Source of the DNA: Rhodococcus globerulus NBRC 14531
GTDB taxonomy: Bacteria > Actinomycetota > Actinomycetes > Mycobacteriales > Mycobacteriaceae
Assembly: GCF_001894805.1 (NCBI RefSeq)
Contig: NZ_BCWX01000003.1
Coordinates: 186,001 to 250,000 of the forward strand
Length of the DNA stretch: 64,000 bases
Direction: 5' to 3'
Made by a program: the position numbers and the translations under genes. Shown here in pieces: positions 39,666 to 54,589 of this stretch; position 1 is the stretch's first letter; each line of letters begins with the position of its first letter. The notes beneath the pieces were generated by a model. That model saw only the letters and a list, made by a program, of their open reading frames with translations. It did no database searches and was not told where the DNA came from.

Positions 39666-40403
39666 CTAGGTCGATGTGTCCGCGTGCAGGTTTCCGATCC
39701 GCTGTCGTAGACCACCGAAATGCACGTCGAGAGTGTGCGCAGCTTCGATGGCATCGCCGGTACGAATAGCGTCGAGAATTGCGCGATGCTTCGACGCTAT
39801 ATCGACGAGCGGTGTATCCGAATGCCCGATTGCCTGCTGGATTTCGCTGTACACCTGCCAGAAGACATCCATCAATTGTGCAAGCACCTGATTGTCGAGC
39901 GGTGAATACAACCGGCTGTGGAAAGTCGCATCGATATCGGAGAAATTCTTTCCGGCTGCTGCGCGGACTTCCATCCCTGTGACGAGTTCGTCGAGAGCGT
40001 CGTGGTCCTCGGTGGTCATCTCTGCCATTGCGGCGCCGATCAGACCGGTTTCGAGAGCCTGACGGATATCGACCAATTCCATCGCTTCGTGGCCGGTGCC
40101 CTGAAGTGACAATCTGCCCCGGAACGTCAGGCCGTCGGCCAGCGCGTCGAAGTTACTCGGAGCGACAAACATTCCGAAACCGTGCCGGATTTCGACGACG
40201 CCCAAGGCCTGCAGAACCTTGAGAGCCTCGCGCAGAGTGTTCCTGCCGATTCCCAGTTCTTCGGAGAGTTCCGCCTCGGTGGGCATCGGATCACCGGGGG
40301 AGAGCCGACGATCCAGGATCAGGTTCATGATGTCTGATTGAAGTGCGCGCATACGGTTCTGCGCGCTGAAACGAGCACGCGGTGTGCCACTCCGAACAGA
40401 CAT
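39666..40403 (-). CDS. GntR/FCD-family regulator, probable NanR of the sialic acid locus
   Basis: 245 residues. The winged HTH spans residues 15-75 (PGDPMPTEAELSEELGIGRN and TLREALKVLQALGVVEIRHG), followed by the all-helical FCD ligand domain with metal-type His residues (DIDATFHSRLY, SKHRAILDAI). ATG 40403 has AAGGGG seven bases upstream. It is the last gene of the leftward transporter unit and also has its own half-site. By context it should respond to sialic acid or an amino-sugar phosphate. Confidence 0.82.
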   Translation of the reverse strand: MSVRSGTPRARFSAQNRMRALQSDIMNLILDRRLSPGDPMPTEAELSEELGIGRNTLREALKVLQALGVVEIRHGFGMFVAPSNFDALADGLTFRGRLSLQGTGHEAMELVDIRQALETGLIGAAMAEMTTEDHDALDELVTGMEVRAAAGKNFSDIDATFHSRLYSPLDNQVLAQLMDVFWQVYSEIQQAIGHSDTPLVDIASKHRAILDAIRTGDAIEAAHTLDVHFGGLRQRIGNLHADTST

Positions 40404-40435
40404 CGATTCCCCTTTTCCGAATTGAACGTCCTTCA

Positions 40436-40446
40436 TCCTATGTCCG
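40436..40446. promoter_or_regulatory. Possible half-operator upstream of the GntR gene
   Basis: TCCTATGTCCG resembles TCCTATGTTCG in the operator at 46022-46040 (one mismatch). It lies between the ATPase stop and the GntR start, with no matching second arm. Confidence 0.4.
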
Positions 40447-40466
40447 CTTGTCGACTCCATCGGGTA

Positions 40467-41282
40467 TCACGCATCCACGGTGCGTTGCAGCAGGCTTGGG
40501 GCCGCGCCGAGCAGTTTTGCGGTGTAGGCGTCTGATGGGTTGTCGAACACTTCTTGCGCAGTTCCCTGTTCGACGATCCGCCCGGCATTCATCACGACAA
40601 TGCTGTCGGAGACGTAGCGAACGGTCTGGATATCGTGCGAGATGAAGACCATTCCCAGCCCGAGTCGTGCCTTGATGTCGCTGAGCAAATTCAGGATCTG
40701 CGCGCGCACCGACACGTCGAGTGCGGATGTCGGCTCGTCGGCGACGATCACGTCCGGTTCGAGTGCCAGCGCACGGGCGATGGCAACGCGCTGGCGCTGT
40801 CCGCCCGAGATCTGACTCGGGATGACTTCGAGCGCGGATTGGGGAAGCCCGACCAGTCCGACCAGTTCGCGGACCCGAGCAGAGCGGGTGGAACGATTCC
40901 CGATGCCGTGTACGTCGAGTGGATCGGTGAGGATGTCGGCCACCGTCATTCGCGCATTGAGCGCGGTGGCCGGGTCCTGGAACACGATGGAGATAGCGCG
41001 CCCGAATTCCTTGCGGACCGACGCCGATCGGGTCAGAGCACTCTGTCCACGAAAGACGACGTCGCCCGACGTCGGCTTCTGCAGTCCGACCATGACCTTC
41101 GCGAGCGTCGACTTGCCGCAACCGGACTCGCCCACGATGCCGATCGTCGTCCCTCGTCGCACGGCGATACTGACATCGTTGACGGCGTGCACGGTTCCGG
41201 GTTTGAACAACGATCCCGAACGAGTCTTGTGGACGACGTGAATGTTCTTCAGTTCCAGGATGGGTGTTTCGGCTGTGGTCAT
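40467..41282 (-). CDS. ABC importer ATPase subunit (OppF/DppF type)
   Basis: 271 residues. Walker A is GESGCGKST, the Q-loop VFQDPATALN, the signature ISGGQRQR, and Walker B VIVADEPTS, all intact. It shares gene order with a permease, a permease-ATPase fusion and a binding protein of the peptide/nickel family-5 type, energising that importer from the cytoplasm. It overlaps the preceding gene by four bases. Cargo is deduced from the locus (sialic acid or sialyl derivative) rather than from the protein. Confidence 0.88.
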   Translation of the reverse strand: MTTAETPILELKNIHVVHKTRSGSLFKPGTVHAVNDVSIAVRRGTTIGIVGESGCGKSTLAKVMVGLQKPTSGDVVFRGQSALTRSASVRKEFGRAISIVFQDPATALNARMTVADILTDPLDVHGIGNRSTRSARVRELVGLVGLPQSALEVIPSQISGGQRQRVAIARALALEPDVIVADEPTSALDVSVRAQILNLLSDIKARLGLGMVFISHDIQTVRYVSDSIVVMNAGRIVEQGTAQEVFDNPSDAYTAKLLGAAPSLLQRTVDA

Positions 41283-43357
41283 CGCACGCTCTCCAATTCC
41301 GATTCTGCGGATACGGGTGCCGCGGACTGGTTGGCGAACCAGTGCTCGGTCCCGCCGATCCGAACCATCTCGGGCTTTCGGTGGGGATCGGAATCCGGAC
41401 GCAGGGAACGTTCGGCAAAACGGTCACCGGTGGCGAAGCTGCCGGGCGACGGCACGGTTCCCTGGATCTGGTGGAGCCGCGGAGCCTCGTCCTCGATGGA
41501 GAGAACGGCGCCGAGGAGGCCCTGGGTGTATTCGTGACGCGGATCGATGAGCAGATCGCTGGTGGGCGCAGACTCGACGACCTGACCGGCGTACATCACC
41601 GTGATCTTGTGGGCGAGCGAAGCAACGAGTGCAAGATCGTGGCTCACGAAAACCATCGCAAAGCCGAGCTTTTCCCGCAGATCGTTGAGCAGGTCCACCA
41701 CCTGAGCCTGGACGGTGACGTCGAGAGCAGTGGTGGGCTCGTCGGCGACGATCAGGCGCGGGCTACGCGTGAGCGACATCGCGATGAGGACGCGCTGGCG
41801 TTGACCACCCGACAACTCGTGCGGGTAGCTGGCAAGCGTGCGAACCGGGTCGAGTCCGACAAGTTCGAGAAGTTCCTCGGCGGTACGTGTTCCGCCTCTC
41901 TTGGTGAGCTGCTTGAACTGGGCGCGGATCAACATTGCCGGGTTCAGGGAGCTGAGTGCGTCCTGGTAGATCATGGCCATGTCGTGTCCGCGAAGCTTGT
42001 TTCGTTCCCGGTTGTTCAGTTCGAGGACGTTGACGCCGTCGAAGAGGATCTCACCGGTCACCACTGCGGTCTTGGGCAGCAGGCCCATGATCGCCAGTGA
42101 CGTCAGCGACTTGCCACAGCCTGATTCGCCGACCAGAGCCATCGTCTCGTTCGGACGGACCGTGAAGCTGACGTTGTCGACGATTGCGGTGTCGCCGTAG
42201 CGTTCCGGGAAACGGATCGTCAGATTGCGTACCTCGAGCAGTGGAGCGGCGTCGCCTTCGTAGACAAGACGATCGGTGCGTGTCCGTTCGGTTTCCGCCA
42301 GGATTTTCAGGTGCGTTTCGAGTGGCGTCGGCGCGACGACCGGTTTCAGCGCCTTGGTGACAATGACACTCGAGTCGGCGAAGTCATCACTGACAACCAG
42401 TGATTCGGCGTCTCGCGCGGCCTCTTCTTCCAGGATGAGCTCGTTGGACGTTTCCTCCGCAGCGGCGGTGCTGGCTGATTCGAGAGCTGTCTTCTTGGTC
42501 TTCTTCAGGCTCGGATCAGCCATCGCGTCGGTGAGACCCTCGGCGAGGACGTTCAGGGAGAGCACGGTCAGAAGAATCAGCAGACCGGGGAACACCGTTG
42601 CCCACCAACCACCGAGCAGGACCATGTTCTTGCCGTCGGCGATTACCGATCCCCACGACGGGTCCGGTGGTCGCACGCCCGCGCCGATGAACGACAGGCT
42701 GGCTTCGAGCACGATGGCGTCGGCAACCATGACCGTGCAGAACACGAGAACAGGGGCAGCGCAGTTGGTGACGACGTGCTTGACGACGATGTGGGAAGTG
42801 CTTGCCCCGATGACTTTTTCAGCGGCGACGTAATCCTCGCCGTACTGGGCGAGCACGTTGGCGCGAACGACACGCGCAACCATCGGGGTGTAGAGGAAGG
42901 CGATGGTGACGATGAGGACGGGGATCGAACCGCCGAACGCTGCAACGAGGACGGCTGCGAGCGCGATGCCCGGGAACGCCATGACGACGTCGAGCACACG
43001 CATGATGGTCTCGTCGACGGACTTTCGGCTGGTTGCGGCCACCGAACCGATGAGGGCGCCGGCGCACAGTGCCAGGAAGGTGGACCCGAGGCCGATAGTC
43101 AGTGACCAGCGTCCGCCGTACAGCAAGCGGCTGAACAGATCTCGGCCGAGACTGTCCTGGCCGAACCAGTGTTCCGCGCTGGGGCCGGACGTACCCACAG
43201 CTTGTTCGAGCGGGCTGTACTGCGTGATGAGCGGCGCGAACAGGCAGGCGAGGACGATGATCGCGAGGACGGCCATCGACAGCCAGGCGGAGAGGGGAAA
43301 CCGTGAAAAGGTGATACCGGGACGCGAAAGCTTCTCGGTGAGTTTTCTTCTCATCAT
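41279..43357 (-). CDS. Fused ABC permease (DppC-type) and ATPase (OppD-type)
   Basis: 692 residues. Residues 20-285 form the membrane part with about six helices and the conserved loop (EKVIGASTSHIVVKHV). Residues 286-365 are an acidic, Ala-rich linker. Residues 370-600 are the ATPase with Walker A GESGCGKS (410-417), LSGGQRQR (515-522) and Walker B LIVADEPT (535-542). The normal separate permease and ATPase are joined in one chain. Similar fused subunits are known among actinobacterial sialic-acid-type importers. It has four-base overlaps with both neighbours. Confidence 0.9.
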   Translation of the reverse strand: MMRRKLTEKLSRPGITFSRFPLSAWLSMAVLAIIVLACLFAPLITQYSPLEQAVGTSGPSAEHWFGQDSLGRDLFSRLLYGGRWSLTIGLGSTFLALCAGALIGSVAATSRKSVDETIMRVLDVVMAFPGIALAAVLVAAFGGSIPVLIVTIAFLYTPMVARVVRANVLAQYGEDYVAAEKVIGASTSHIVVKHVVTNCAAPVLVFCTVMVADAIVLEASLSFIGAGVRPPDPSWGSVIADGKNMVLLGGWWATVFPGLLILLTVLSLNVLAEGLTDAMADPSLKKTKKTALESASTAAAEETSNELILEEEAARDAESLVVSDDFADSSVIVTKALKPVVAPTPLETHLKILAETERTRTDRLVYEGDAAPLLEVRNLTIRFPERYGDTAIVDNVSFTVRPNETMALVGESGCGKSLTSLAIMGLLPKTAVVTGEILFDGVNVLELNNRERNKLRGHDMAMIYQDALSSLNPAMLIRAQFKQLTKRGGTRTAEELLELVGLDPVRTLASYPHELSGGQRQRVLIAMSLTRSPRLIVADEPTTALDVTVQAQVVDLLNDLREKLGFAMVFVSHDLALVASLAHKITVMYAGQVVESAPTSDLLIDPRHEYTQGLLGAVLSIEDEAPRLHQIQGTVPSPGSFATGDRFAERSLRPDSDPHRKPEMVRIGGTEHWFANQSAAPVSAESELESVR

Positions 43358-44313
43358 GCTGCGCTCCGAAGTCGTGGATTGACAAGCAGGTAGAGGATGT
43401 CGACCGCGAGGTTGACGACGACGAAACCGACTGCGATGACGATGACAACACCCTGGACAACTGCAGGGTCGCCGTTGGTGACGCCGTTGATCATGAGCTG
43501 ACCCATGCCGGGAAGGCCGAAGATCTGCTCGATGACAACGGCGCCACCCAAGAGATACCCGACGCGCAGACCCAGAACGGTGAGCGGGTTGATCAGCGCG
43601 TTACGCAACACGTTTCGCCCGATCACCACGGGGTAGGGCAGGCCGCTTCCGATGGCCGTGCGGACGTAATCCTTGTCCAATTCCTCGACCATGGACGTGC
43701 GGATGATGCGGGTGAGTTGAGCCGCGACGGGGAGTGACAGAGACAAGGCGGGGAGCGCCATGTACCACAGCCAGTCCGTGACCGAGTCGGCCGGATTGAC
43801 GTAGCCGCCGGTGGGGAACCACCCGAGTTTGACAGCTAGATACTGAATCATGAGCAGCGCCAACCAGAATGACGGTGCGGCGACGCCGGCGAGTGAAACC
43901 ACCCGGATGACCTGATCTGGCCAACGATCACGGAACAGGGCGCTGGTGACACCGAAGATCAGTGAGAGCACGATGGCGATCACCAGGCCCAGAACAGTGA
44001 GTTGAATCGTCAGCGGCAGTGCCGTGGAGATCGAATCCAGTACCGGGGTACCGGAAATCAGGCTGTCACCCATGTTCCCACTGAGGAGATCGGTGACGAA
44101 GTGGACGTACTGCAGCGGCAGTGGGTCGAGCAGTCCGTTCTCTTCCTTGAACTGCTGCAACTGTTCTGCCGTCGGGTTACCACCGTTGAACGCCGCCGTT
44201 GCGGGATCGGTGGGCGCGAACTGCATCACGATGAAAACAAACGCGATGATGCCGAGGATCAGGGGGATCAGTATCAGTAATCGCCTGATCAGCATGGGGA
44301 GGACTCTGGCCAT
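43354..44313 (-). CDS. ABC importer permease subunit (DppB/OppB type)
   Basis: 319 residues with about six membrane helices. The family loops QFAPTDPATAAFNGGNPTAE, AIGSGLPYPVVIGRNVLRNA (EAA-like) and VVIEQIFGLPGMGQLMINGV are diagnostic of BPD_transp_1 dipeptide/oligopeptide permeases. ATG 44313 is preferred over the frame from 44376. It has a four-base overlap with the downstream permease-ATPase. It forms the membrane channel with the fused subunit. Confidence 0.88.
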   Translation of the reverse strand: MARVLPMLIRRLLILIPLILGIIAFVFIVMQFAPTDPATAAFNGGNPTAEQLQQFKEENGLLDPLPLQYVHFVTDLLSGNMGDSLISGTPVLDSISTALPLTIQLTVLGLVIAIVLSLIFGVTSALFRDRWPDQVIRVVSLAGVAAPSFWLALLMIQYLAVKLGWFPTGGYVNPADSVTDWLWYMALPALSLSLPVAAQLTRIIRTSMVEELDKDYVRTAIGSGLPYPVVIGRNVLRNALINPLTVLGLRVGYLLGGAVVIEQIFGLPGMGQLMINGVTNGDPAVVQGVVIVIAVGFVVVNLAVDILYLLVNPRLRSAA

Positions 44314-44356: not shown

Positions 44357-45982
44357 TCAGGCCGGCTTTGCCGCAAGCAGGTTGACGCCGGGGTACGGCA
44401 GCGGGGTGACGTCGGTGATCTTCTGCGGATCCCACGCGGTCAGCAGTTCCTGATGCAGAACCGGGTAGTAGACAGCGTTTTCGGCGATCTGGTTCAGGTA
44501 CGACTGCACGAGGGTGCTGCGCTTGGCGGGGTCCGTCTCGCGAGTTGCCTCGTCCATCGTGGCGTAGATTCTCTGAGCCTGCGGCGTGTCGTCCCACTTG
44601 GCGTACGTCTTGGTCCACAGGCCGCCCTTGCTGTACGTGTAGCGAACGAGAAGGTCGACGTCGGATCCGAAAGCCTGCGGGTTCGACGTGCCGGCCGCGA
44701 TCTGGAACTTCTGGCCACTGTTGAGCTTGCTGACCATCGCACTGGTGTCCTGCGGCTCGAGCGTGGTGTTGAATCCGACTGCGTCCCAGGACTCTTTGAT
44801 AGTGGGGAGGCAATCGGCGAGCCAACTGACGTTGGTGGAGAGCAACGTGAGGTCGAGTCCGCTGACGCCGGCGGCAGCGAGGAGCGAGCGTGCCTTGTCC
44901 GGATCGTACGAGTAGACGGTGGACGCGCGCGAGTAGTCGGGATTGCGCTCGTACAGGTAGCTCGTGGCCGGAGCGGCCTTGCCGCCCAGGGCGATCTCGA
45001 TCATCTTCGGAGTGTTGAGAGCGTAGAACATCGCCTGGCGAACGCGAACGTCGTCGAACGGTGCCTGCGTCGTGTCGAAGAGCAGGTACATCAGGTTCAT
45101 GCCCGGATTGCCCTCGACGGTACGTCCACCGGACGTCAGCGTCGGGACGTTCGCAACGGGGATGTTGTCGGCGAGCTGAGCGCCGGCATTGTTGCCCGAT
45201 ACTCGTGCGATACGCGAGGACGTGTCGACGATGGACAGCCAGTTCATGGTCGTGAAGTTGGCCGGACGCGGGCCGTTGTACGCGGGGAAGGCCTCGAATG
45301 CCGTGTTGCTCTTGGGAGTATGGCTGGTCACCTTGTACGGACCGGAGCCGACCACGAGCGCGCCGGACTTGGCTTCGTCCCAATGGCCGTCGAAGACATG
45401 CTTGGGCATGATCTTGGCAATCGAAAGGCGTTGAGCGGCAGCGCTGAACGGGTAGTTGAAGTTGAGTGTCACGGTCTGGTCGTCGACCTTGGTGACGGAC
45501 TGCAACCAGGAAGAGAAGAAGGCGCGGATCAGCACGTTCTGCTGGGGATCGAGAATGCGCTCGAAGCTGAAGACAACGTCGTCCGAGGTGACCGGGGTGC
45601 CGTCGTGCCAGGTGGCGCCGTCGCGGATCTGCATGGTCCAGCTCGACGCGGTGGCGTCGGTGGGAACAGTCTTCGCCAGCGCGGCATACGTCTCGCCGGT
45701 GGCCGGATCGTTCTCGAGCAGGCCTTCGTACACGTGGTTGACCGCGGCCATCAGGAAGCCGGATGCGGTCTGCATCGGATCGAAACTCTGGTCGTTTCCG
45801 TAACCGATGGCGGTGGTGAGGTCGCCCGTGGACGAGGAGCCGCCCACGGCCGAGGTCGACGAGGGGCCGCCGCCGCACGCTGCGAGTGTTGCGGTGATAC
45901 CTGCAGCTGCTCCGAGCAGGCCGGTGTACCGGAACAGGTCCCGGCGGGTGATGGCGGAGCTCAGCGGTCGTTGGTTCTTCAA
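44357..45982 (-). CDS. Family-5 extracellular solute-binding lipoprotein of the importer
   Basis: About 541 residues. The N-terminus is RRDLFRYTGLL (possible Tat-like) with the lipobox LAAC (Cys36), followed by SBP_bac_5 sequences DPATGETYAALAKTV, WTMQIRDGATWHDGTPV and DVRVRQAMFYALN. It is anchored outside and captures the substrate. The start is TTG; I prefer TTG 45982 with GGAGG five bases upstream to TTG 45994. It is the first gene of the leftward unit, preceded by the operator at 46022. Confidence 0.87.
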   Translation of the reverse strand: MKNQRPLSSAITRRDLFRYTGLLGAAAGITATLAACGGGPSSTSAVGGSSSTGDLTTAIGYGNDQSFDPMQTASGFLMAAVNHVYEGLLENDPATGETYAALAKTVPTDATASSWTMQIRDGATWHDGTPVTSDDVVFSFERILDPQQNVLIRAFFSSWLQSVTKVDDQTVTLNFNYPFSAAAQRLSIAKIMPKHVFDGHWDEAKSGALVVGSGPYKVTSHTPKSNTAFEAFPAYNGPRPANFTTMNWLSIVDTSSRIARVSGNNAGAQLADNIPVANVPTLTSGGRTVEGNPGMNLMYLLFDTTQAPFDDVRVRQAMFYALNTPKMIEIALGGKAAPATSYLYERNPDYSRASTVYSYDPDKARSLLAAAGVSGLDLTLLSTNVSWLADCLPTIKESWDAVGFNTTLEPQDTSAMVSKLNSGQKFQIAAGTSNPQAFGSDVDLLVRYTYSKGGLWTKTYAKWDDTPQAQRIYATMDEATRETDPAKRSTLVQSYLNQIAENAVYYPVLHQELLTAWDPQKITDVTPLPYPGVNLLAAKPA

Positions 45983-46021
45983 GGCGGCCTCCAAGGCGGG
46001 GAGCGGGACATCTCGGGTGGG

Positions 46022-46040
46022 ATAGGGGATGTCCTATGTT
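46022..46040. promoter_or_regulatory. Operator-like palindrome ATAGG-N6-CCTAT, transporter side
   Basis: ATAGG (46022-46026) and CCTAT (46033-46037) are perfect arms. A 15-base stretch, 46026-46040, is repeated in inverted orientation at 46219-46233. It lies 40 bases upstream of the binding protein start, a good position for repression. Confidence 0.7.
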
Positions 46041-46218: not shown

Positions 46219-46237
46219 AACATAGGACATCCCTTAT
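46219..46237. promoter_or_regulatory. Operator-like palindrome ATAGG-N6-CTTAT, catabolic operon side
   Basis: Inverted copy of the other site, with one mismatch in an arm (CTTAT versus CCTAT). It lies 19 bases upstream of the first oxidoreductase start, where a bound repressor would block transcription. Confidence 0.7.
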
Positions 46238-46255: not shown

Positions 46256-47305
46256 ATGACCCGATACAAAGTCGGCGTGGTCGGTTGCGGATTCTTCGGT
46301 AGTTCACTCGCACGCGAGTTTGCTGCCCATCCACGTTTCGAACTCACGATGCTCTGCGACCGAGATATAGAGCGGGCGACGGAAGCCGCGGGAGAATTCG
46401 GTGCGACCCCCACCAACGATCACGGTGCGGTGGCGGCTGAAGCGACGATCGACCTTGTTGTAGTCGCGACGCCCAATCACACCCATGCGGAACCGGCACT
46501 TGCCGCACTGACACAGGGCAAGGCAGTGTTCGTGGAGAAGCCACTCGCAGTCGAGCTCTCCGAAGCTCGCGGCATGATCGAGTGCGCCGACACCAACGGT
46601 TCGACGCTCATGGTCGGACACATCATGCGGATGATGCCGGGTGTGCGAGCCCTGGCCGCGTCGGTCCGGTCCGGAGACATCGGTGACGTCAATGCCATCG
46701 AGACATCGAGGTCCCGGTGGATAGACACCGCCGGCGCGGACCCACAGTGGTGGAAGCTCGACAAGAGTCAGACCGGCGGCGAACTCACTCACGAGATTCA
46801 CGAACTGGATTTGATGTGCTGGCTCGGCGGTGACGTCGACGGCGTGTCGAGCATCGCGACACCGGACGACGGATTCCGGACGACGGTCGTGAAGTTCGCC
46901 AACGGCGCGGTCGGCACCCACACGATCTCGACCCGCTCGCACACGTCGTCGTGGGATCTGACGGTCAACGGATCGGACGGCGCGCTTCGGGCGGATTTCC
47001 GTACCGGACTTGTGCAGCGCTTCACCGGAGGTCAGGTTGTCGAATCCTGGCCCATCTTCGACGACGCGGACGAGAATCAGTCCTTGATCGACTCGGCAAC
47101 CAAGACGCAGAAGTACAACTCCGGCGGCGCGGCGTCGTCGGTGTGGATGCAGGCCGCGATCCGCCACGAAATCGACGAGATCGCACGGGTTCTCGATTCC
47201 GGCGCCGAATCGCCCCTCACGGCGGACACCGACCGAGCGCTGGTCGTGGCGCAGCAGGTGCGTCTCGGACAAGCCGAGCCCGCGGACATTCGAGCTGCGC
47301 GATGA
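46256..47305 (+). CDS. GFO/IDH/MocA-family oxidoreductase 1 of sialic acid locus
   Basis: 349 residues. The NAD(P) motif GVVGCGFFG (7-15) and the catalytic Lys motif VEKPLAVEL (EKP at 94-96) are intact, and the C-terminal alpha/beta sheet domain includes GGELTHEIHELDLMCWLGG with a conserved His. It is the first gene of the rightward operon, with TGGAGAC before ATG 46256. Family members include NanOx-type enzymes that convert 2,7-anhydro-sialic acid to Neu5Ac, and inositol and sugar dehydrogenases. The activity here is inferred from context. Confidence 0.85.
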   Translation: MTRYKVGVVGCGFFGSSLAREFAAHPRFELTMLCDRDIERATEAAGEFGATPTNDHGAVAAEATIDLVVVATPNHTHAEPALAALTQGKAVFVEKPLAVELSEARGMIECADTNGSTLMVGHIMRMMPGVRALAASVRSGDIGDVNAIETSRSRWIDTAGADPQWWKLDKSQTGGELTHEIHELDLMCWLGGDVDGVSSIATPDDGFRTTVVKFANGAVGTHTISTRSHTSSWDLTVNGSDGALRADFRTGLVQRFTGGQVVESWPIFDDADENQSLIDSATKTQKYNSGGAASSVWMQAAIRHEIDEIARVLDSGAESPLTADTDRALVVAQQVRLGQAEPADIRAAR

Positions 47306-48297
47306 GCGTCCGCGTTGCCGTGATCGGCAGCGGCGGAATCGCGCGGGACCACGTACGTTCGCTCGCCGGCCTGCCGACAGTGGAGGTCGCCTACGTAGTC
47401 GGTAGTGACTTGAACCGGGCTGCATCGGTGGCTGCCCTCGCACCGGGCGCGCAGGCGAGCACCGACCTGGACCGAGTTCTGGCAGATCCGTCGATCACGG
47501 CTGTCAACGTCGTCGGGGCAACTCCGGATCATGCGCCGGTGACGATTGCAGCAGGCCGTGCGGGAAAGCATGTCCACGTGGAGAAGCCGGCCGCGCTGAG
47601 CGTCGCCGACTTCGACGCCATGGTTGCAGCGACCGAAGGCAACGGTACGTCGTTGATGGTCGGTCAGACCGTGCGGTTCCAGCCGTCGATCACCTCGATC
47701 GGCGCTTCCGTCGCGCAGGGCGCTATCGGGGATCCCCGCTTGATCCATTTGAGTTGGTACACCGGCCACGTCTGGCCGGGCGGCTGGCGCGGGTGGCAAC
47801 ACGACAAGGAACGCTCCGGTGGGCATCCCGTTCACAACGGAACGCACGCACTCGATCTGGTGACCTGGCTGATCGACCGCAAGCCGATTCGCGTTTTCGC
47901 TCGCAGCTTTCCGACGTTTGCCGCCGGCATGCCCGTTCATGACAGCTTCCATCTGACCGTCCGCTTCGAGGACGGTTCCTTGGCGTTGATCGAGTTGGCG
48001 TACGCGCTGCCACAATCGGGAAAGATGTTGCGTCGCATCGTCGTCTCGGGCACGCAGGGCACTCTCGCGCACGACACGGGCGATGATCCGGGGCTCATGT
48101 CCGACACCACCAACGCGCCGCCGTCGTCGATCGAAGACGCCATGACGCATCAGATGCGCCACTGGATCGGCACTCTTGACGGTTCTCAGACGCCGTTGGT
48201 CCAGAACTGGCAGGTGCGCGCGGCGCTCGCCACAGCCGTCGCCGCGCAACAATCGCTTGATACCGGGCGCGCCGTTGCAATCGGAGGGCAGCAATGA
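47302..48297 (+). CDS. GFO/IDH/MocA-family oxidoreductase 2 of sialic acid locus
   Basis: 331 residues. The Rossmann motif AVIGSGGIARDH (6-17) and EKP (94-96) are present, and GGHPVHNGTHALDLVTWLID provides the His/Asp-type catalytic helix. It overlaps the first oxidoreductase by four bases (ATGA). It is only distantly similar to its two neighbours, so the trio is unlikely to be a recent duplication. A role in redox-assisted isomerisation or hydration of sialic acid derivatives is possible. Confidence 0.85.
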   Translation: MSVRVAVIGSGGIARDHVRSLAGLPTVEVAYVVGSDLNRAASVAALAPGAQASTDLDRVLADPSITAVNVVGATPDHAPVTIAAGRAGKHVHVEKPAALSVADFDAMVAATEGNGTSLMVGQTVRFQPSITSIGASVAQGAIGDPRLIHLSWYTGHVWPGGWRGWQHDKERSGGHPVHNGTHALDLVTWLIDRKPIRVFARSFPTFAAGMPVHDSFHLTVRFEDGSLALIELAYALPQSGKMLRRIVVSGTQGTLAHDTGDDPGLMSDTTNAPPSSIEDAMTHQMRHWIGTLDGSQTPLVQNWQVRAALATAVAAQQSLDTGRAVAIGGQQ

Positions 48298-49346
48298 CCA
48301 GCACTGGTTCGATCCGTGTCGGATTCATCAGCGGCGTAAGGCATGCCGGGTCCTACGCGGACTTGTTGCGAGCCGACCCCCGCGTGCACCTGGTCGGTGT
48401 CGCCGACGAATCATCGGTGCCCGACTGGATCCGCGAAGACGGAATGAAGATGGCCGCTGCCGCCGACATCGCGTGGATCGACGACCTCGGTGAGCTTCTC
48501 GACCCCGACCGGATTGACCTGGCAGTGATCTGCAGCGAACCGACTCGGCATGCGAGGCTCGCTATAGCTGCCTTGAACGCGGGACTTGATGTCCTCGTGG
48601 ACAAGCCGGTGGGAATCGACGAGACAGAAGCCGCGGCGGTTCAGGAAGCAGCTGAGGCAAACGGGCGCATCTGCACCGTAGTAAACCGCACGCATTCACC
48701 CGCCCTGCGGAGACTGCGCCGCTGGATCGACGCGGGAAACCTCGGACTTCCACGCCACGTGGACATCGAGTTCCTCGCCAGCGGAACACATTTTGCGACA
48801 TCCGTGGAACGGCCGGAGTTGGTTGTCGACCCAGCACTGTCCGGCGGGGGAGAAGTTGTGAACTTCCTTGGATACGCCGCCGACTACCTCCGTTACCTCA
48901 CCGGACTCGACGTCACCGAGGTGTACGCGGAGACAAGCACGTTGTACGGCGGCGCACACGAGAAGTTCGGTGTGGAAGACACCGCGCTCATTTCACTCGC
49001 GCTGGCACACGGCGTCACTGCGACCGTCACAGTCGGAAGAATCCCCGCAGCACCAGGTTTCGGTGCCAATACCGCAACGGTTCGGGTACTCGGATCGCAC
49101 GGTTACGCCAGTTCGGACGACGACAAACCAGCGCTCATGCAGTTCGGTGCTTCCGGTGATGTCACCGCACTACCCATCGGGGGCTTCGGATCCGACAATG
49201 CGGTGTCGAGCTTCCTCGCTCACCTACTCGATCGACTGCCGAACCGGATCAACCCCGATTACTCGGTTGCCGACGCTCGCGCATCGATGCGCGTGATCGA
49301 CGCCGCCTACCGGTCCGCCGCGTGCGGGCAGCCGGTTTCCGTGTGA
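48294..49346 (+). CDS. GFO/IDH/MocA-family oxidoreductase 3 with a degenerate nucleotide-binding motif
   Basis: 350 residues. The opening GFISGVRHAGSYADLL replaces the usual GxGxxG, and the Lys motif is DKPVGID (DKP at 103-105) rather than EKP. The rest (CSEPTRHARLAIAALNAGLD, GGGEVVNFLGYAADYLRYLT) keeps the family layout. It overlaps oxidoreductase 2 by four bases. It may bind a different cofactor, be structural, or act as a non-oxidative partner. A 58-base gap separates it from the aldolase gene. Confidence 0.8.
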   Translation: MTSTGSIRVGFISGVRHAGSYADLLRADPRVHLVGVADESSVPDWIREDGMKMAAAADIAWIDDLGELLDPDRIDLAVICSEPTRHARLAIAALNAGLDVLVDKPVGIDETEAAAVQEAAEANGRICTVVNRTHSPALRRLRRWIDAGNLGLPRHVDIEFLASGTHFATSVERPELVVDPALSGGGEVVNFLGYAADYLRYLTGLDVTEVYAETSTLYGGAHEKFGVEDTALISLALAHGVTATVTVGRIPAAPGFGANTATVRVLGSHGYASSDDDKPALMQFGASGDVTALPIGGFGSDNAVSSFLAHLLDRLPNRINPDYSVADARASMRVIDAAYRSAACGQPVSV

Positions 49347-49404: not shown

Positions 49405-50334
49405 ATGAGCACGGACACCACGACCTTCAGCGGAATTGTTCCTCCGATCGTCACACCCTTGACCATTGACGGTGACGTCGACACGAAGTCGCTCGAGCGC
49501 CTCCTGTCGATGCAGATCGAGGCGGGCGTCGACGGCCTGTTCATCCTCGGTTCCTCGGGCGAGGTCGGCTACCTGACCGATGCTCAGCGCGCCCAGGTTG
49601 TGCAGACGGCCATCGGACACGTCGGCGGCCAGTTGCCGGTGTTGGTCGGTGTCAACGACATGACGACGAACCGCGTCATCGCAGTTGCCGAGCAGGCACG
49701 TGAGGCCGGTGCAGACGCCATCGTCGCGACAGCTCCCTTCTACGCGATCACCAACGCCGAAGAGACGGCCACGCACTTCCGCTCCATCCATGCGGCAGTG
49801 GACCTTCCGCTGTTTGCCTACGACGTTCCGGTCCGTGTTCACAGCAAGCTTTCCACCGCAATGCTGGTCGAACTCGGCCGCGAAGGTGTCATTGCCGGTG
49901 TCAAGGACTCGAGCGGCGACGACGTCAGCTTCCGCATGCTGCTGCGTCAGTCCGTCGGCCTGGAGAACTTTGCCGTCTTCACCGGCCACGAGGTTGTAGT
50001 CGACGGCTGCCTGCTCATGGGTGCATCAGGTGCGGTGCCCGGCCTGGCAAACGTCGATCCCCACGGCTACGTCCGGTTGTGGCGCGCCGCGCAGGCCGGC
50101 GACTGGGCTGCCGCCAAGGTCGAGCAGGACCGGCTCACGGATCTCTTCTCCATCGTCGACGCGCCGACGCCGGGCCGCGTCAGTGCAGGTGCTGCCGGAT
50201 TGGGCGCCTTCAAGACTGCACTGGCTCTGCGCGGTGTCATCTCGAGCAACACGATGTGCGCTCCGATGCTGTCTCTCGACGAGTCCGAGGCCGCAACCAT
50301 CAAGGTCATTCTCGAACGCGCCGGACTGATCTGA
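49405..50334 (+). CDS. nanA: DHDPS/NAL-family aldolase, probable sialic acid aldolase NanA
   Basis: 309 residues with a (beta/alpha)8 barrel. The pyruvate-binding motif is LGSSGE, the catalytic Tyr lies in LFAYDVPV, and the Schiff-base Lys is in AGVKDSSGDD. NanA cleaves N-acetylneuraminate to ManNAc and pyruvate. DHDPS and KDG aldolases share these motifs, so the choice rests on the downstream kinase, NanE, NagA and NagB. It is followed by the ROK kinase with a two-base gap. Confidence 0.75.
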   Translation: MSTDTTTFSGIVPPIVTPLTIDGDVDTKSLERLLSMQIEAGVDGLFILGSSGEVGYLTDAQRAQVVQTAIGHVGGQLPVLVGVNDMTTNRVIAVAEQAREAGADAIVATAPFYAITNAEETATHFRSIHAAVDLPLFAYDVPVRVHSKLSTAMLVELGREGVIAGVKDSSGDDVSFRMLLRQSVGLENFAVFTGHEVVVDGCLLMGASGAVPGLANVDPHGYVRLWRAAQAGDWAAAKVEQDRLTDLFSIVDAPTPGRVSAGAAGLGAFKTALALRGVISSNTMCAPMLSLDESEAATIKVILERAGLI

Positions 50335-50336
50335 CG

Positions 50337-51266
50337 ATGACGCACGGGCAGGAGCGTTGGATCGGTGTCGACATCGGGGGCACCAAAGTAGCTGCAGCCG
50401 TGGTTACCTCCTCAGGTGAAGTGCTCGAATCCGTTCGCGCAGCAACACCGGCGGCGGGCCGAGATGCGGTGCTCGACACTACAGCTGCATTGATCGACCA
50501 GTTACGCGTCACACACACTGTTGACGGAATCGGTGTTGGTGCACCGGGAATCGTCGATCGGTCCAGTGGTCGAGTGGTGTTCGCTTCCGACATCCTGCCC
50601 GGGTGGATGGGCGCAGAGGTGCGCAGTGAGCTCGAAGCGCGTACGTCGCTGCCGGTGACCGTGGACAACGACGTGCGAGTTATGGCGCACGGGGAGAACA
50701 TGATCGGTGCCGGCCACGGTCGGAGTTCCGTCTTGTTCGTCTCGATCGGCACCGGCATCGGTGGCGCGCTGTCCATCGGCGGTGAACTCCGTCATGGCGC
50801 TCACGGCACGGCAGGTGAACTGGCACATCTGCTCGTTCCCGCGGCCGGTGCCATCGGCTGTGGCTGCGGCCGCACCGATCACCTCGAAGCGGTTGCCTCC
50901 GGACCCGCCATGGCTGCCGAGTATGCCGCCAGGGCTGGTGTTCCCGTGCAGCCTTTGCCGAAGGTGGTTGCACTGATGCACTCGGGTGACCCGATTGCCC
51001 GCGCAGTGATCACCGATGCGGGTGAACTACTCGGCCGGGTTCTGGCCGGAGTGGCAACGGCCTTCGATCCCGAGGTGATCGTGATCGGCGGCGGCGCCGC
51101 CCAGATCGGAGCAGATCTGCTGTCGCCCTTGATGTCGGCATTCCGAGTCGAAGCGATGAAGCCGATCGCCGAGACCGCCATTCTCCCGGCACGGTTGGGC
51201 ACCGACGCGCCATTGGTGGGCGCCGGACTGCTTGCCGCCGCAACACGAACAGAGGTATCACGATGA
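50337..51266 (+). CDS. nanK: ROK-family kinase, probable N-acetylmannosamine kinase NanK
   Basis: 309 residues. The ATP motif is GVDIGGTKVAAAV, the second phosphate motif GVGAPGIVD, and the catalytic Asp lies in VDNDVRVMAHGE (Asp112). The ROK zinc site has His164 in GTAGELAH and Cys175/Cys177 in GCGCGRTDHLE, but the third Cys is replaced by His182. It should phosphorylate ManNAc before epimerisation by NanE, whose gene it overlaps by four bases. Glucokinase activity is the main alternative. Confidence 0.82.
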   Translation: MTHGQERWIGVDIGGTKVAAAVVTSSGEVLESVRAATPAAGRDAVLDTTAALIDQLRVTHTVDGIGVGAPGIVDRSSGRVVFASDILPGWMGAEVRSELEARTSLPVTVDNDVRVMAHGENMIGAGHGRSSVLFVSIGTGIGGALSIGGELRHGAHGTAGELAHLLVPAAGAIGCGCGRTDHLEAVASGPAMAAEYAARAGVPVQPLPKVVALMHSGDPIARAVITDAGELLGRVLAGVATAFDPEVIVIGGGAAQIGADLLSPLMSAFRVEAMKPIAETAILPARLGTDAPLVGAGLLAAATRTEVSR

Positions 51267-51970
51267 CACTCGACGAGTTACTGAAGATCATCAGCGGAAA
51301 GCTGGTCGTCTCGTGCCAGGCTGGCCATGGGCACGCGCTGCGTGACACGGCAACAATCGAGCGGATGGCCAGGGCTGCCGTCGACGGCGGCGCTGCCGCG
51401 ATTCGCTGCGGCGGAGTGGGCGGAACACCCGATGTCGCCGCTGTCGCCGCTGCTGTGACGGTGCCGGTGATCGGTCTGACGAAGATCGGATCCTCCGGGG
51501 TGTTCATCACTCCGACACGAGAATCCGCGTTGGACGTTGTCGACGCCGGTGCACAAATCGTTGCAGCCGACGCGACATTGCGCCAACGCCCGGACGGATT
51601 GACATTCGCGGATACCGTCGAGGCAGTCCATGCGCGAGGCGCTCTGGTGATGGCTGATTGTGGAACGCTCGAAGATGGCATTGCGGCCGCAGAGGCCGGC
51701 GCCGACATCATCTCGAGTACCCTTGCCGGTTACACCGAGAACAGTCGACGGCTCAGTGGTCCCGATCTGGAGCTGATCTCGGAACTGAGGAACGCACTTC
51801 CCGATGCAGTGCTGATCGCGGAAGGTCGCTACCACAGCCCGGAGCATGCAGCGCAGGCGATTGCGCTTGGTGCGGATTCGGTAGTGGTGGGTACCGCGAT
51901 CACCGATCCAGCCTTCATTACCGCGACGTTCGCCAAGGCGATCGCGGGCGCGCGGAGCGATGGTCGATGA
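51263..51970 (+). CDS. nanE: N-acetylmannosamine-6-phosphate 2-epimerase NanE
   Basis: 235 residues of a TIM barrel. VVSCQAGHGHALRDTATI and AAIRCGGVGGTPDV followed by VIGLTK are the phosphate-binding and catalytic strands of NanE, with LIAEGRYHSPEHAAQAIALGAD at the C terminus. It converts ManNAc-6-P to GlcNAc-6-P. Four-base overlaps with nanK upstream and the SGNH gene downstream imply a tightly coupled operon. The assignment is the most specific marker of sialic acid use in the locus. Confidence 0.88.
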   Translation: MTLDELLKIISGKLVVSCQAGHGHALRDTATIERMARAAVDGGAAAIRCGGVGGTPDVAAVAAAVTVPVIGLTKIGSSGVFITPTRESALDVVDAGAQIVAADATLRQRPDGLTFADTVEAVHARGALVMADCGTLEDGIAAAEAGADIISSTLAGYTENSRRLSGPDLELISELRNALPDAVLIAEGRYHSPEHAAQAIALGADSVVVGTAITDPAFITATFAKAIAGARSDGR

Positions 51971-52629
51971 CGGCTGAGCGTCGCAGAGTCGAAGCACTGC
52001 TGAAAGATTCGTCCACACCGATCCGGTGGGTGTTCACCGGCGACAGCATCACGCAGGGTTTGGCTCACACAAACGGGCAGCGCAGCTACGTCGAACACTT
52101 TGCGGAACGCATCCGTGGCGAGATGTCGTTGTTCAATCACATTGTGATCAACACCGGCGTGAGCGGTAACCGCTCGTCCGACGTCCGTGACGGATTTGCC
52201 CATCGCATCGAGATCTTCGAGCCGTCGGTGGTGTTGATCATGCTCGGCACCAACGACGCTCTCGGCGGCGGCGTCGATCTCGAACGATTCCGGGAAGACC
52301 TGTCCGACATCATCTTCCGCTCACGTGCGCTCGGTGCCGTTCCGATTCTGCAGACGCCGCCGCCCATCGACGTCCCGAACGCGCCGACGCGATCCGCGCT
52401 GATCGACTACGTCGAGATGACCCGCCGGGTTGCCGCGTCGACGCGCGCGATCTTCATCGATCACTACGAGCAGTGGTTCGCGGATTCACCGGAGGGTCCG
52501 CCGCCGTCACTCTTGGCTGATGCGTTCCATCCGAACGAGAACGGGCACTATGTGCTCGCGGACGCGATACTTCGCGAGTTGGGGATCGCCGACATGGACA
52601 GTTCTGTTGCAACACAGGTGATGTCGTGA
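51967..52629 (+). CDS. SGNH/GDSL hydrolase, possible sialate O-acetylesterase
   Basis: 220 residues. The block I Ser is in FTGDSITQG, the Asn/Gly motif follows in MLGTNDALGGG, and the catalytic Asp/His pair is in ADAFHPNENGHY. No signal peptide, so it would act in the cytoplasm. In sialic acid loci an esterase of this type removes O-acetyl groups from imported sugars. It overlaps nanE and nagA by four bases. An esterase with other acyl sugars as substrate is equally compatible. Confidence 0.8.
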   Translation: MTAERRRVEALLKDSSTPIRWVFTGDSITQGLAHTNGQRSYVEHFAERIRGEMSLFNHIVINTGVSGNRSSDVRDGFAHRIEIFEPSVVLIMLGTNDALGGGVDLERFREDLSDIIFRSRALGAVPILQTPPPIDVPNAPTRSALIDYVEMTRRVAASTRAIFIDHYEQWFADSPEGPPPSLLADAFHPNENGHYVLADAILRELGIADMDSSVATQVMS

Positions 52630-53795
52630 TCCTGCGTGGAAAGCTGATCACCGGAGGCCGCATGCTGGCCGACGGAGTTGTCGAGACGTCCGGTGATCGA
52701 GTGGTGTGGGCCGGACCCGCGTCGGAGCGGACGGACCAGCTCCCGGAACCTGCTGATCCGGGCACGACGATCATTCCCGGTCTCGTGGACGTGCACTGCC
52801 ATGGGGCCGGCGGATTCGGTTTCCCGGAAGCCGATCGCGACGGTTCCACCGCAGCGGCGGATCACCACCGACACAACGGAACGACCTCGGTGATCGGGTC
52901 GTTGGTGTCGGCGCCGCCGAATGTCTTGCATGGCCGCATCGAATTGCTGGCGTCGCTTGTGGAGCGCGGCACGCTCGCCGGAATCCATCTGGAAGGTCCG
53001 TTCCTGTCGGTACTGCGTTGTGGTGCACAGGATCCTGCAAGCATTCTCGACGGCGATCCAGCCCTGCTCGAGTCGCTGTTGGCTGCCGGGCGCGGTCACA
53101 TCCGCTCGATGACCATCGCACCCGAGACCGCGCATTTTGCCGAACTGTCGACCATGCTGACCGAGAACGGCGTGGTGGTCAGCATCGGTCACACCGACGC
53201 GTCCAATCCGACCGCCACCCGATCGATCGCACATTCGGCTCACGCACCGCTCAGTGCCACACACCTTTTCAACGGAATGGCGCCTATGCACCACCGTGAG
53301 CCTGGCGCAGTGGCTGCCTGCCTGGCGGCCGCAGCCCGTGGCCAGATGGTGGTCGAGTTGGTCGGCGACGGTGTCCATCTGGCCGATGAAACTGTCTCCA
53401 CGGTGTTCGATCTTGTCGGCCCACATCAGATTGCTCTGGTCTCCGACGCCATGGCGGCAGCAGGTATGCCGGATGGGCGGTACCCGCTCGGTCCACTCGA
53501 CGTGGACGTTGTCGACGGAGTGGCCCGACTTGCCGGACAAGGCGACACTGCTATAGCCGGCGGTACCAGCAGGCTGATGGACATCGTGCGTCGGACGGTG
53601 CTCGATGCCGGGGTTGATCTGCTCGCGGCGGTCACCGCCGCAACTGCAACTCCCGCCGCGCTGTTGGGATTGACCGGGATTGTCGGTGACCTCGTCCCGG
53701 GATGCCGCGCCGATCTTGTCGTTACCGACAAAAAACTTTTGCCCCGAGCAGTCATGGCTTCGGGAAACTGGCTTACGAACACCATGGAAAGCTGA
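52626..53795 (+). CDS. nagA: N-acetylglucosamine-6-phosphate deacetylase NagA
   Basis: 389 residues of the amidohydrolase superfamily. Metal and catalytic residues are visible: DVHCHG (His57, His59), HLEGPFL (Glu123), SIGHTDA (His189), THLFNGM (His213) and LVSDAMA (Asp274). It removes acetate from GlcNAc-6-P to give GlcN-6-P. It starts with GTG 52626, overlapping the preceding stop (GTGA). The next gene is the matching isomerase-deaminase nagB. Confidence 0.9.
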   Translation: MILRGKLITGGRMLADGVVETSGDRVVWAGPASERTDQLPEPADPGTTIIPGLVDVHCHGAGGFGFPEADRDGSTAAADHHRHNGTTSVIGSLVSAPPNVLHGRIELLASLVERGTLAGIHLEGPFLSVLRCGAQDPASILDGDPALLESLLAAGRGHIRSMTIAPETAHFAELSTMLTENGVVVSIGHTDASNPTATRSIAHSAHAPLSATHLFNGMAPMHHREPGAVAACLAAAARGQMVVELVGDGVHLADETVSTVFDLVGPHQIALVSDAMAAAGMPDGRYPLGPLDVDVVDGVARLAGQGDTAIAGGTSRLMDIVRRTVLDAGVDLLAAVTAATATPAALLGLTGIVGDLVPGCRADLVVTDKKLLPRAVMASGNWLTNTMES

Positions 53796-53809: not shown

Positions 53810-54589
53810 ATGGAAATTGTCATCGTCAACGACGCGGATACAGCCGGCACGGTTGTCGCCGATATCTTCGACCACGCAGTACGCTCCGGCGCACGAACTT
53901 TGGGCTTGGCAACTGGATCGTCGCCGCTCTCCGTCTACCGCGAACTTGCGAGGCGCCACCGCGAGGAAGGCTTGAGTTTTGCCGGCCTGCAGGCTTTTCT
54001 GCTCGACGAGTACGTCGGCCTCCCAGATGGACACCCCGAGTCCTATGCGCAGGTAATCCGGACCGAGCTGGTCAATCACCTTGACCTCGACAGTGCTCGC
54101 GTGTTCAGTCCGAACGGAACTACCGGAGACCCGTTCGGCGCTGCCGCAGCCTACGATCGCGCGATCGCCGCCAACGGTCCGGTGGATGTACAACTCCTCG
54201 GCATCGGGGCAAACGGCCACATCGGATTCAACGAGCCGACGTCGTCGCTGACCTCACGCACACGGGTGAAAACGTTGACCGAACAGACCCGGATAGACAA
54301 CGCACGATTCTTCGAGAGCCTCGACGACGTTCCGCGCCACGTCATCACACAGGGTCTCGGAACGATCTGCGACGCAGGGCATCTTGTGATGATCGCAACC
54401 GGAGAACACAAGGCAGACGCGATCGCCGCCGCGGTCGAAGGACCCCTCGCCGCGGTCTGTCCCGCATCGGTTCTTCAATTGCACCCACACGCAACAGTTG
54501 TCGTCGACGAAGCCGCGGCGTCGAAGCTTCAGCTCACCGAGTTCTACAAGACGGTGTCAGCGCACAAGCCGCTCGCGCAACACTACTGA
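53810..54589 (+). CDS. nagB: Glucosamine-6-phosphate deaminase NagB
   Basis: 259 residues. Phosphate-binding LGLATGSSPLSVY, catalytic LLDEYVGL (Asp66, Glu67) and GIGANGHIGFNEP (Asn135, His137, Glu142) are all present. It converts GlcN-6-P to fructose-6-P and ammonia, joining sialic acid and chitin breakdown to glycolysis. ATG 53810 follows GAGGAAG. It is the last gene of the operon and nearly meets the convergent fadD17. Confidence 0.9.
   Translation: MEIVIVNDADTAGTVVADIFDHAVRSGARTLGLATGSSPLSVYRELARRHREEGLSFAGLQAFLLDEYVGLPDGHPESYAQVIRTELVNHLDLDSARVFSPNGTTGDPFGAAAAYDRAIAANGPVDVQLLGIGANGHIGFNEPTSSLTSRTRVKTLTEQTRIDNARFFESLDDVPRHVITQGLGTICDAGHLVMIATGEHKADAIAAAVEGPLAAVCPASVLQLHPHATVVVDEAAASKLQLTEFYKTVSAHKPLAQHY

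Follow-up and report, generated by a model that had tools for sequence, protein, structure and literature searches.

The stretch of DNA considered here, hereafter called the window, comprises 64,000 nucleotides of the soil bacterium Rhodococcus globerulus NBRC 14531 (positions 186001-250000 of contig NZ_BCWX01000003.1, or G000:C3, in a genome of 6.73 Mb), and contains a sialic-acid operon headed by three intact genes for oxidoreductases of the Gfo/Idh/MocA family. These genes, designated GFO1, GFO2 and GFO3, are read from the forward strand and encode proteins of 349, 331 and 350 amino acids, respectively. The trio had been noticed in an original prediction, which extended its four-base overlaps as far as the aldolase gene; two overlaps only are present, at the GFO1-GFO2 (47302-47305) and GFO2-GFO3 (48294-48297) junctions, while a 58-base gap separates the end of GFO3 from the aldolase start at 49405. 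The same operon continues in the order nanA-nanK-nanE-esterase-nagA-nagB, and it is divergent from a SatA-like ATP-binding cassette (ABC) transporter operon whose last gene encodes a NanR-like GntR regulator. Judged by its sequence, this is a sialic-acid catabolic operon, and the proposed link of the trio to sialic acid is borne out by the operon genes, the SatA-like transporter and the co-occurrence with nanE described below.

Sequence features of GFO1, GFO2 and GFO3

All three proteins match PF01408 and the C-terminal domain of the family above the gathering cut-offs. GFO1 (46256..47305, + strand; PF01408 E 3e-30) carries a glycine-rich dinucleotide motif, GxGxx(G/A), and is an HExH variant (K95, K167, H179, E180, H182). 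Its top match in the PDB is Escherichia coli YjhC (6o15, E 2e-32), and a maximum-likelihood tree places it as sister clade to NanOx, represented by YjhC and a NanOx of Microterricola, with support of 97/97. In RgNanOx, mutants of K93, K163, H175, H176 and H178 are inactive (PMC7535918). GFO1 retains four of these five essential residues, namely the EKP lysine (K95, equivalent to K93), the second lysine (K167, equivalent to K163) and two of the three motif histidines (H179 and H182, equivalent to H175 and H178). GFO1 thus resembles NanOx/NanY (YjhC) in its position in the tree, its fold family, these residues and its linkage to nan genes, but differs from it in having HExH instead of HHxH and in being only 29% identical to the Microterricola NanOx in an alignment. 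The HExH motif is kept in four lineages (Rhodococcus, genome G295, Leifsonia and Streptosporangium). With omega values of 0.15-0.19, GFO1 evolves faster than GFO2, GFO3, nanA and nanE.

GFO2 (47302..48297, + strand; PF01408 E 2e-20) has the appearance of a standard nicotinamide adenine dinucleotide (NAD) enzyme, with a GxGxxA motif that conforms to the glycine-rich pattern, an EKP lysine (K95) and the sequence H178-N-G-T-H182; its orthologues are 56-97% identical in the aligned sets. GFO3 (48294..49346, + strand; PF01408 E 5e-14) is an atypical member of the family, whose match to PF01408 starts only at profile position 18. SxVRHA replaces GxGxxG in GFO3, and the glycine motif is thus missing; this replacement is invariant across orthologues, as are DKP (K104) and N190-x3-Y194, which takes the place of a D-x3-H pair. 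Tyrosine stands for that histidine in some family members (PMC7535918). Omega values of 0.05-0.08 for GFO3, 0.04-0.07 for GFO2 and 0.04-0.06 for nanA and nanE indicate purifying selection. The sequence data therefore argue that GFO3 is functional, but it is probably not a standard NAD enzyme. The possibility that GFO3 is a decaying pseudogene was ruled out by the same omega values.

GFO2 and GFO3 are each monophyletic and well supported in the tree, are not sisters and fall outside the NanOx clade. The HHxH motif of NanOx is missing from both, being replaced by HNGTH in GFO2 and by N-x3-Y in GFO3. The expectation that all three proteins would be NanOx-like therefore holds for GFO1 and fails for the other two, which form separate lineages, GFO3 moreover being without the canonical NAD glycine motif. 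Recent tandem duplication was ruled out as the origin of the trio, since each member has a clade of its own and the aligned parts of GFO1 and GFO2 show about one third identity. Structures predicted from eight-sequence alignments have family-typical folds, with predicted local distance difference test (pLDDT) values of 82 for GFO2 and 81 for GFO3. The predicted GFO2 fold is near those of GenD2, inositol dehydrogenase and RgNanOx (template modelling score, TM, of 0.80, among many others) and also resembles NAD-dependent glycoside hydrolases (8qc2-8qc8). These comparisons for GFO2 and GFO3 gave generic family matches and no clue to the substrate.

Conservation of the pair and co-occurrence with nan genes

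Fifteen genomes were inspected: six of Rhodococcus (the named members of the genus reached were R. erythropolis NBRC 15567, which carries the locus as L022, and Rhodococcus sp. P-2 and IEGM 1379), Leifsonia sp. TF02-11, Microterricola pindariensis, its near relative G819, Streptosporangium violaceochromogenes, Curtobacterium pusillum and the genomes G295, G976, G780 and G697. GFO2 and GFO3 are neighbours in all 15, and their frames overlap at each junction read (by 4 bases, or 11 in Streptosporangium, the exact start in G780 being unsettled). In 14 of the 15, nanA, a ROK kinase gene and nanE lie beside the pair. The exception is Streptosporangium, where a separate unit with its own GntR gene (L074:9055-16228) combines GFO1 and GFO2-GFO3 with an SBP_bac_1-type ABC transporter for sugars, and nanAKE lie on another contig (L073).

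The full trio arrangement is kept in six species of the genus and is contiguous in G295 and Leifsonia, and the pair extends more widely still; on these grounds we do not attribute the arrangement to chance. GFO1 is less constant. The surroundings of the pair showed no GFO1 in Curtobacterium, G976, G780 and G697; for Curtobacterium, the only one of these searched genome-wide, the best match to GFO1 (E 3.5e-28) ranks as a paralogue. Microterricola and G819 retain the GFO2-GFO3 pair and have, next to nanA and in place of GFO1, a true NanOx with the HHxH motif; that of Microterricola is 45% identical to E. coli YjhC. GFO1 can thus be absent or swapped for a true NanOx, and the constant core is the GFO2-GFO3 pair rather than the full trio.

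Within the genus, the genomes with full-length NanE (E below 1e-48) are exactly those with GFO3, 6 of 28, a coincidence expected in 1 of 376,740 arrangements if genomes are treated as independent. In a sample of Microbacteriaceae, GFO2 was found at E 1e-90 or better in 6 of 340 genomes, with GFO3 and nan genes adjacent in all of them. Across 296 genomes of the phylum, and at the thresholds used, GFO1 and GFO2 were each found in the window's genome and G295 only, GFO3 having one additional weak match. A plasmid search returned only relatives below 60% identity, with at most about 33% among the matches listed.

Some of these loci carry further genes. In three Microbacteriaceae genomes, a gene of the DUF4862 family (PF16154) overlaps GFO3 by four bases (L087:11768-12739, L085:7245-8201 and L086:11738-12838), and these three loci link DUF4862 to sialic-acid catabolism; for this family of unknown function we found no relative in the PDB and no paper. 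Curtobacterium pusillum has a gene of the fumarylacetoacetate-hydrolase family between nanA and the ROK kinase gene (L072:1466-2194) and an AXE1 esterase gene adjoining GFO3 (L026:12084-13052). In G295, a SIS-domain gene adjoins nanE (L009:5760-6800), with no nagB seen nearby; it could possibly encode a non-orthologous deaminase.

The remainder of the locus

Downstream of GFO3, the nanA-like gene (49405..50334, + strand) encodes an N-acetylneuraminate lyase of the dihydrodipicolinate synthase family (PF00701, E 2.5e-52), whose closest solved relative (5c54/5c55, E 4e-85) was entered as a dihydrodipicolinate synthase/N-acetylneuraminate lyase. It is followed on the same strand by the ROK kinase gene, presumably for the N-acetylmannosamine (ManNAc) kinase NanK (50337..51266; PF00480, E 1e-59), and by the gene for the ManNAc-6-phosphate 2-epimerase NanE (51263..51970; PF04131, E 3e-51; NCBIfam PRK01130, 259 bits against a cut-off of 189), which is the sole NanE match in the window's genome. 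The three genes lie within 10 open reading frames (49405-51970), as in a canonical nan cluster. Next come an SGNH/GDSL hydrolase (51967..52629, + strand; PF13472, E 5.5e-27), a NagA-like N-acetylglucosamine-6-phosphate deacetylase (52626..53795, + strand; TIGR00221, 192 bits, under the cut-off of 226) and the glucosamine-6-phosphate deaminase NagB (53810..54589, + strand; TIGR00502, 243 bits, over the cut-off of 237). The hydrolase may be a sialate O-acetylesterase, for which the Curtobacterium AXE1 esterase, belonging to another family, is likewise a candidate.

The divergent operon lies on the reverse strand. It comprises a SatA-like solute-binding protein (44357..45994), a permease of the Dpp/Sat type (43354..44313; orthologues in the examined nan loci), a permease-ATPase fusion (41279..43357; a single open reading frame of 692 amino acids), an ATPase (40467..41282) and a GntR/FCD regulator (39666..40460; PF00392 and PF07729). 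The fusion and the ATPase have orthologues in related loci, the 692-residue fusion recurring in several of them. The best PDB matches of the solute-binding protein are SatA structures (5za4/5z99/5yyb, E about 1e-102), of which 5z99 is SatA with N-acetylneuraminic acid (Neu5Ac) bound (PMC11364026). By their sequences, the solute-binding protein, permease and ATPase genes thus form a Sat-type transporter resembling SatABCD of Haemophilus ducreyi, although the host here is Gram-positive. NanR is the top NCBIfam match of the regulator (PRK03837, E 1e-23), at 84 bits, below the cut-off of 260.

Two near-identical palindromes with the shared form ATAGGACATCCC(C/T)TAT flank the divergent promoter: ATAGGACATCCCCTAT (46022..46037, - strand), near the start of the transporter operon, and ATAGGACATCCCTTAT (46222..46237, + strand), 18 bases upstream of GFO1. 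Allowing up to three mismatches, the pattern matches the window at these two positions only, against 0.2 matches expected by chance, and both palindromes are kept in the six Rhodococcus loci; from their sequences, they may be operator-like sites common to both operons. Because of its gene content, SatA-like transporter, NanR-like regulator and palindromes, the locus appears to be a jointly regulated sialic-acid catabolic locus.

Much of this agrees with a survey of actinobacterial nan clusters (PMC8754123), which describes nanA/K/E, a SatA-like ABC transporter of the ST3 type, a FadR-type GntR regulator, nagA and nagB. In that survey, Rhodococcus was nan-positive in 9.7% of species, and nanOx was present in 5 of 255 nan clusters only. 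The window operon differs in being headed by three Gfo/Idh/MocA genes, and a term search of the main text of the survey gave no mention of such genes.

Possible roles of the trio

We propose, as a reading whose chances we judge to be evenly balanced, that the trio is a two-part entry module of the actinobacterial sialic-acid pathway, GFO1 being NanOx-like and GFO2-GFO3 a second pair that feeds Neu5Ac to NanA. The NanOx reaction is redox-neutral and proceeds via a 4-keto intermediate (PMC7315737), and from its sequence we infer that GFO1 is a converter of anhydro-sialates acting in the same manner. With NAD+, it would transiently oxidise its substrate, a sialic acid in anhydro or unsaturated form, at C4; a 2,3-ene intermediate would form and take up water, and C4 would be re-reduced with release of Neu5Ac. 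GFO2 and GFO3 would be co-produced and act jointly on a further modified form of sialic acid, for example an epimer, a sialoside or a different anhydro compound. GFO2 would carry out NAD-dependent hydride chemistry, and GFO3, with its altered nucleotide loop and conserved K104/N190/Y194 pocket, may take on the complementary step, either elimination/hydration or the reduction back, or may instead join GFO2 in a mixed oligomer. The Neu5Ac produced would pass through NanA, the ROK kinase, NanE, NagA and NagB to fructose-6-phosphate. We infer this chemistry for the pair, and favour the pair as a second peripheral module because it is linked to nan genes, is adjacent in all 15 genomes and stands apart from nanAKE in Streptosporangium, whose stand-alone unit fits a peripheral feeding module.

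Several points weigh against this proposal, which draws for all three proteins on sequence and genome context. GFO1 has a glutamate (E180) at the position of His-176 of RgNanOx, where the H176A mutant is inactive (PMC7535918); the altered histidine leaves room for a different substrate. The lack of GxGxxG in GFO3 disfavours simple NAD use and makes a two-enzyme redox relay uncertain. The window transporter belongs to the Neu5Ac type (ST3) and not to the 2,7-anhydro type (ST7) of PMC8754123. The window's genome gave no match to the BNR_2 sialidase domain (PF13088), so that anhydro-sialic acid would need other organisms as its source; free or altered sialic acid is probably supplied from outside. 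Moreover, the six Rhodococcus genomes are closely related, have common flanking genes and are not independent events.

Levoglucosan breakdown places eliminase and hydratase steps between the reactions of two Gfo/Idh/MocA enzymes (PMC10066097). The LgdA-LgdB-LgdC system shares with the window two such proteins in one operon and an ABC transporter, and sets an example, in favour of our proposal, of an anhydrosugar whose oxidation and reduction are divided between enzymes. Together with the resemblance of predicted GFO2 to glycoside hydrolases and RgNanOx and the DUF4862 gene that overlaps GFO3 in three Microbacteriaceae genomes, it is a lead for an oxidation-elimination-reduction scheme in which GFO2 would be the dehydrogenase, GFO3 its partner and a modified sialic acid the substrate.

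Other explanations concern mainly the pair. In a strict LgdA/LgdC-like redox relay (the original prediction had raised a relay for the trio), GFO2 would oxidise an anhydro-sialic acid or sialoside, GFO3 would reduce the ketone, and elimination and hydration would fall to some other protein, perhaps DUF4862 or GFO1, a role with which the position of DUF4862 directly after GFO3 in three Microbacteriaceae genomes agrees. We consider this relay doubtful. The levoglucosan dehydrogenase model (LgdA, NF052479) does give GFO1 88 and GFO2 60 bits, which leans towards the relay, but these values, and the 45 bits of GFO3, are far under its cut-off of 650, and other family models score equally; GFO3 is without GxGxxG; DUF4862 is an uncharacterised family that lacks a relative in the PDB, and no gene for it was seen in the window operon. 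Nor was a PF01261 eliminase seen there, and the downstream pathway is not the same.

Slightly more credible, though still tentative, is an obligate mixed oligomer of GFO2 and GFO3, in which GFO3 would be a non-redox pseudo-oxidoreductase serving as a structural, regulatory or lyase subunit. The constant adjacency with overlapping frames argues for it, as do the invariant SxVRHA under purifying selection and a GFO3 fold that in prediction remains that of the family; against it, frame overlap is no proof of a complex, GFO1 and GFO2 overlap too, and the retained K/N/Y pocket suggests catalysis. We found no literature on inactive Gfo/Idh/MocA partner proteins. That GFO2 and GFO3 together make up a novel NAD-dependent enzyme of two proteins that acts on sialic acid (an anhydro-sialate lyase, for instance, or an oxidative sialosidase inside the cell), with GFO3 as the non-redox partner of GFO2, is about as speculative as the relay. 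Three NanOx-type enzymes, each dedicated to one form of sialic acid, would be in keeping with GFO1 and with the resemblance of the predicted GFO2 fold to RgNanOx, but GFO1 alone groups with NanOx and neither partner has its motif, so we regard this as unlikely. Finally, the three could be ordinary inositol or glucose dehydrogenases placed in the operon by accident, as their weak and unspecific similarity to inositol dehydrogenase models might suggest. The inositol 2-dehydrogenase model (IolG, TIGR04380; cut-off 355 bits) gives 95, 111 and 91 bits for GFO1, GFO2 and GFO3; every score is far under the model cut-offs, the nan linkage is kept in many genomes, presence matches that of NanE in the genus, and the operator-like sites are shared. 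This highly improbable explanation was rejected on the sub-cut-off scores and the conserved context; the observation that could have supported it, an absence of co-occurrence with nanE elsewhere, is contradicted by the genomes inspected.

Returning to the two-part entry module, nan loci, their transporter and NanOx are already known. In the literature searched (open-licence texts, without supplements), we found neither the HExH sister group of NanOx nor a description of the GFO2-GFO3 pair or of the trio, in agreement with the claim that this gene order was undescribed. NanOx aside, sialic-acid breakdown has so far had no evident need for more oxidoreductases. A conserved, coupled pair that accompanies nan genes across several genera of actinobacteria points to a form of sialic acid, or a chemical step, missing from current pathway maps, and GFO3 offers a test case of an NAD-dependent fold kept under selection after loss of its standard nucleotide motif.

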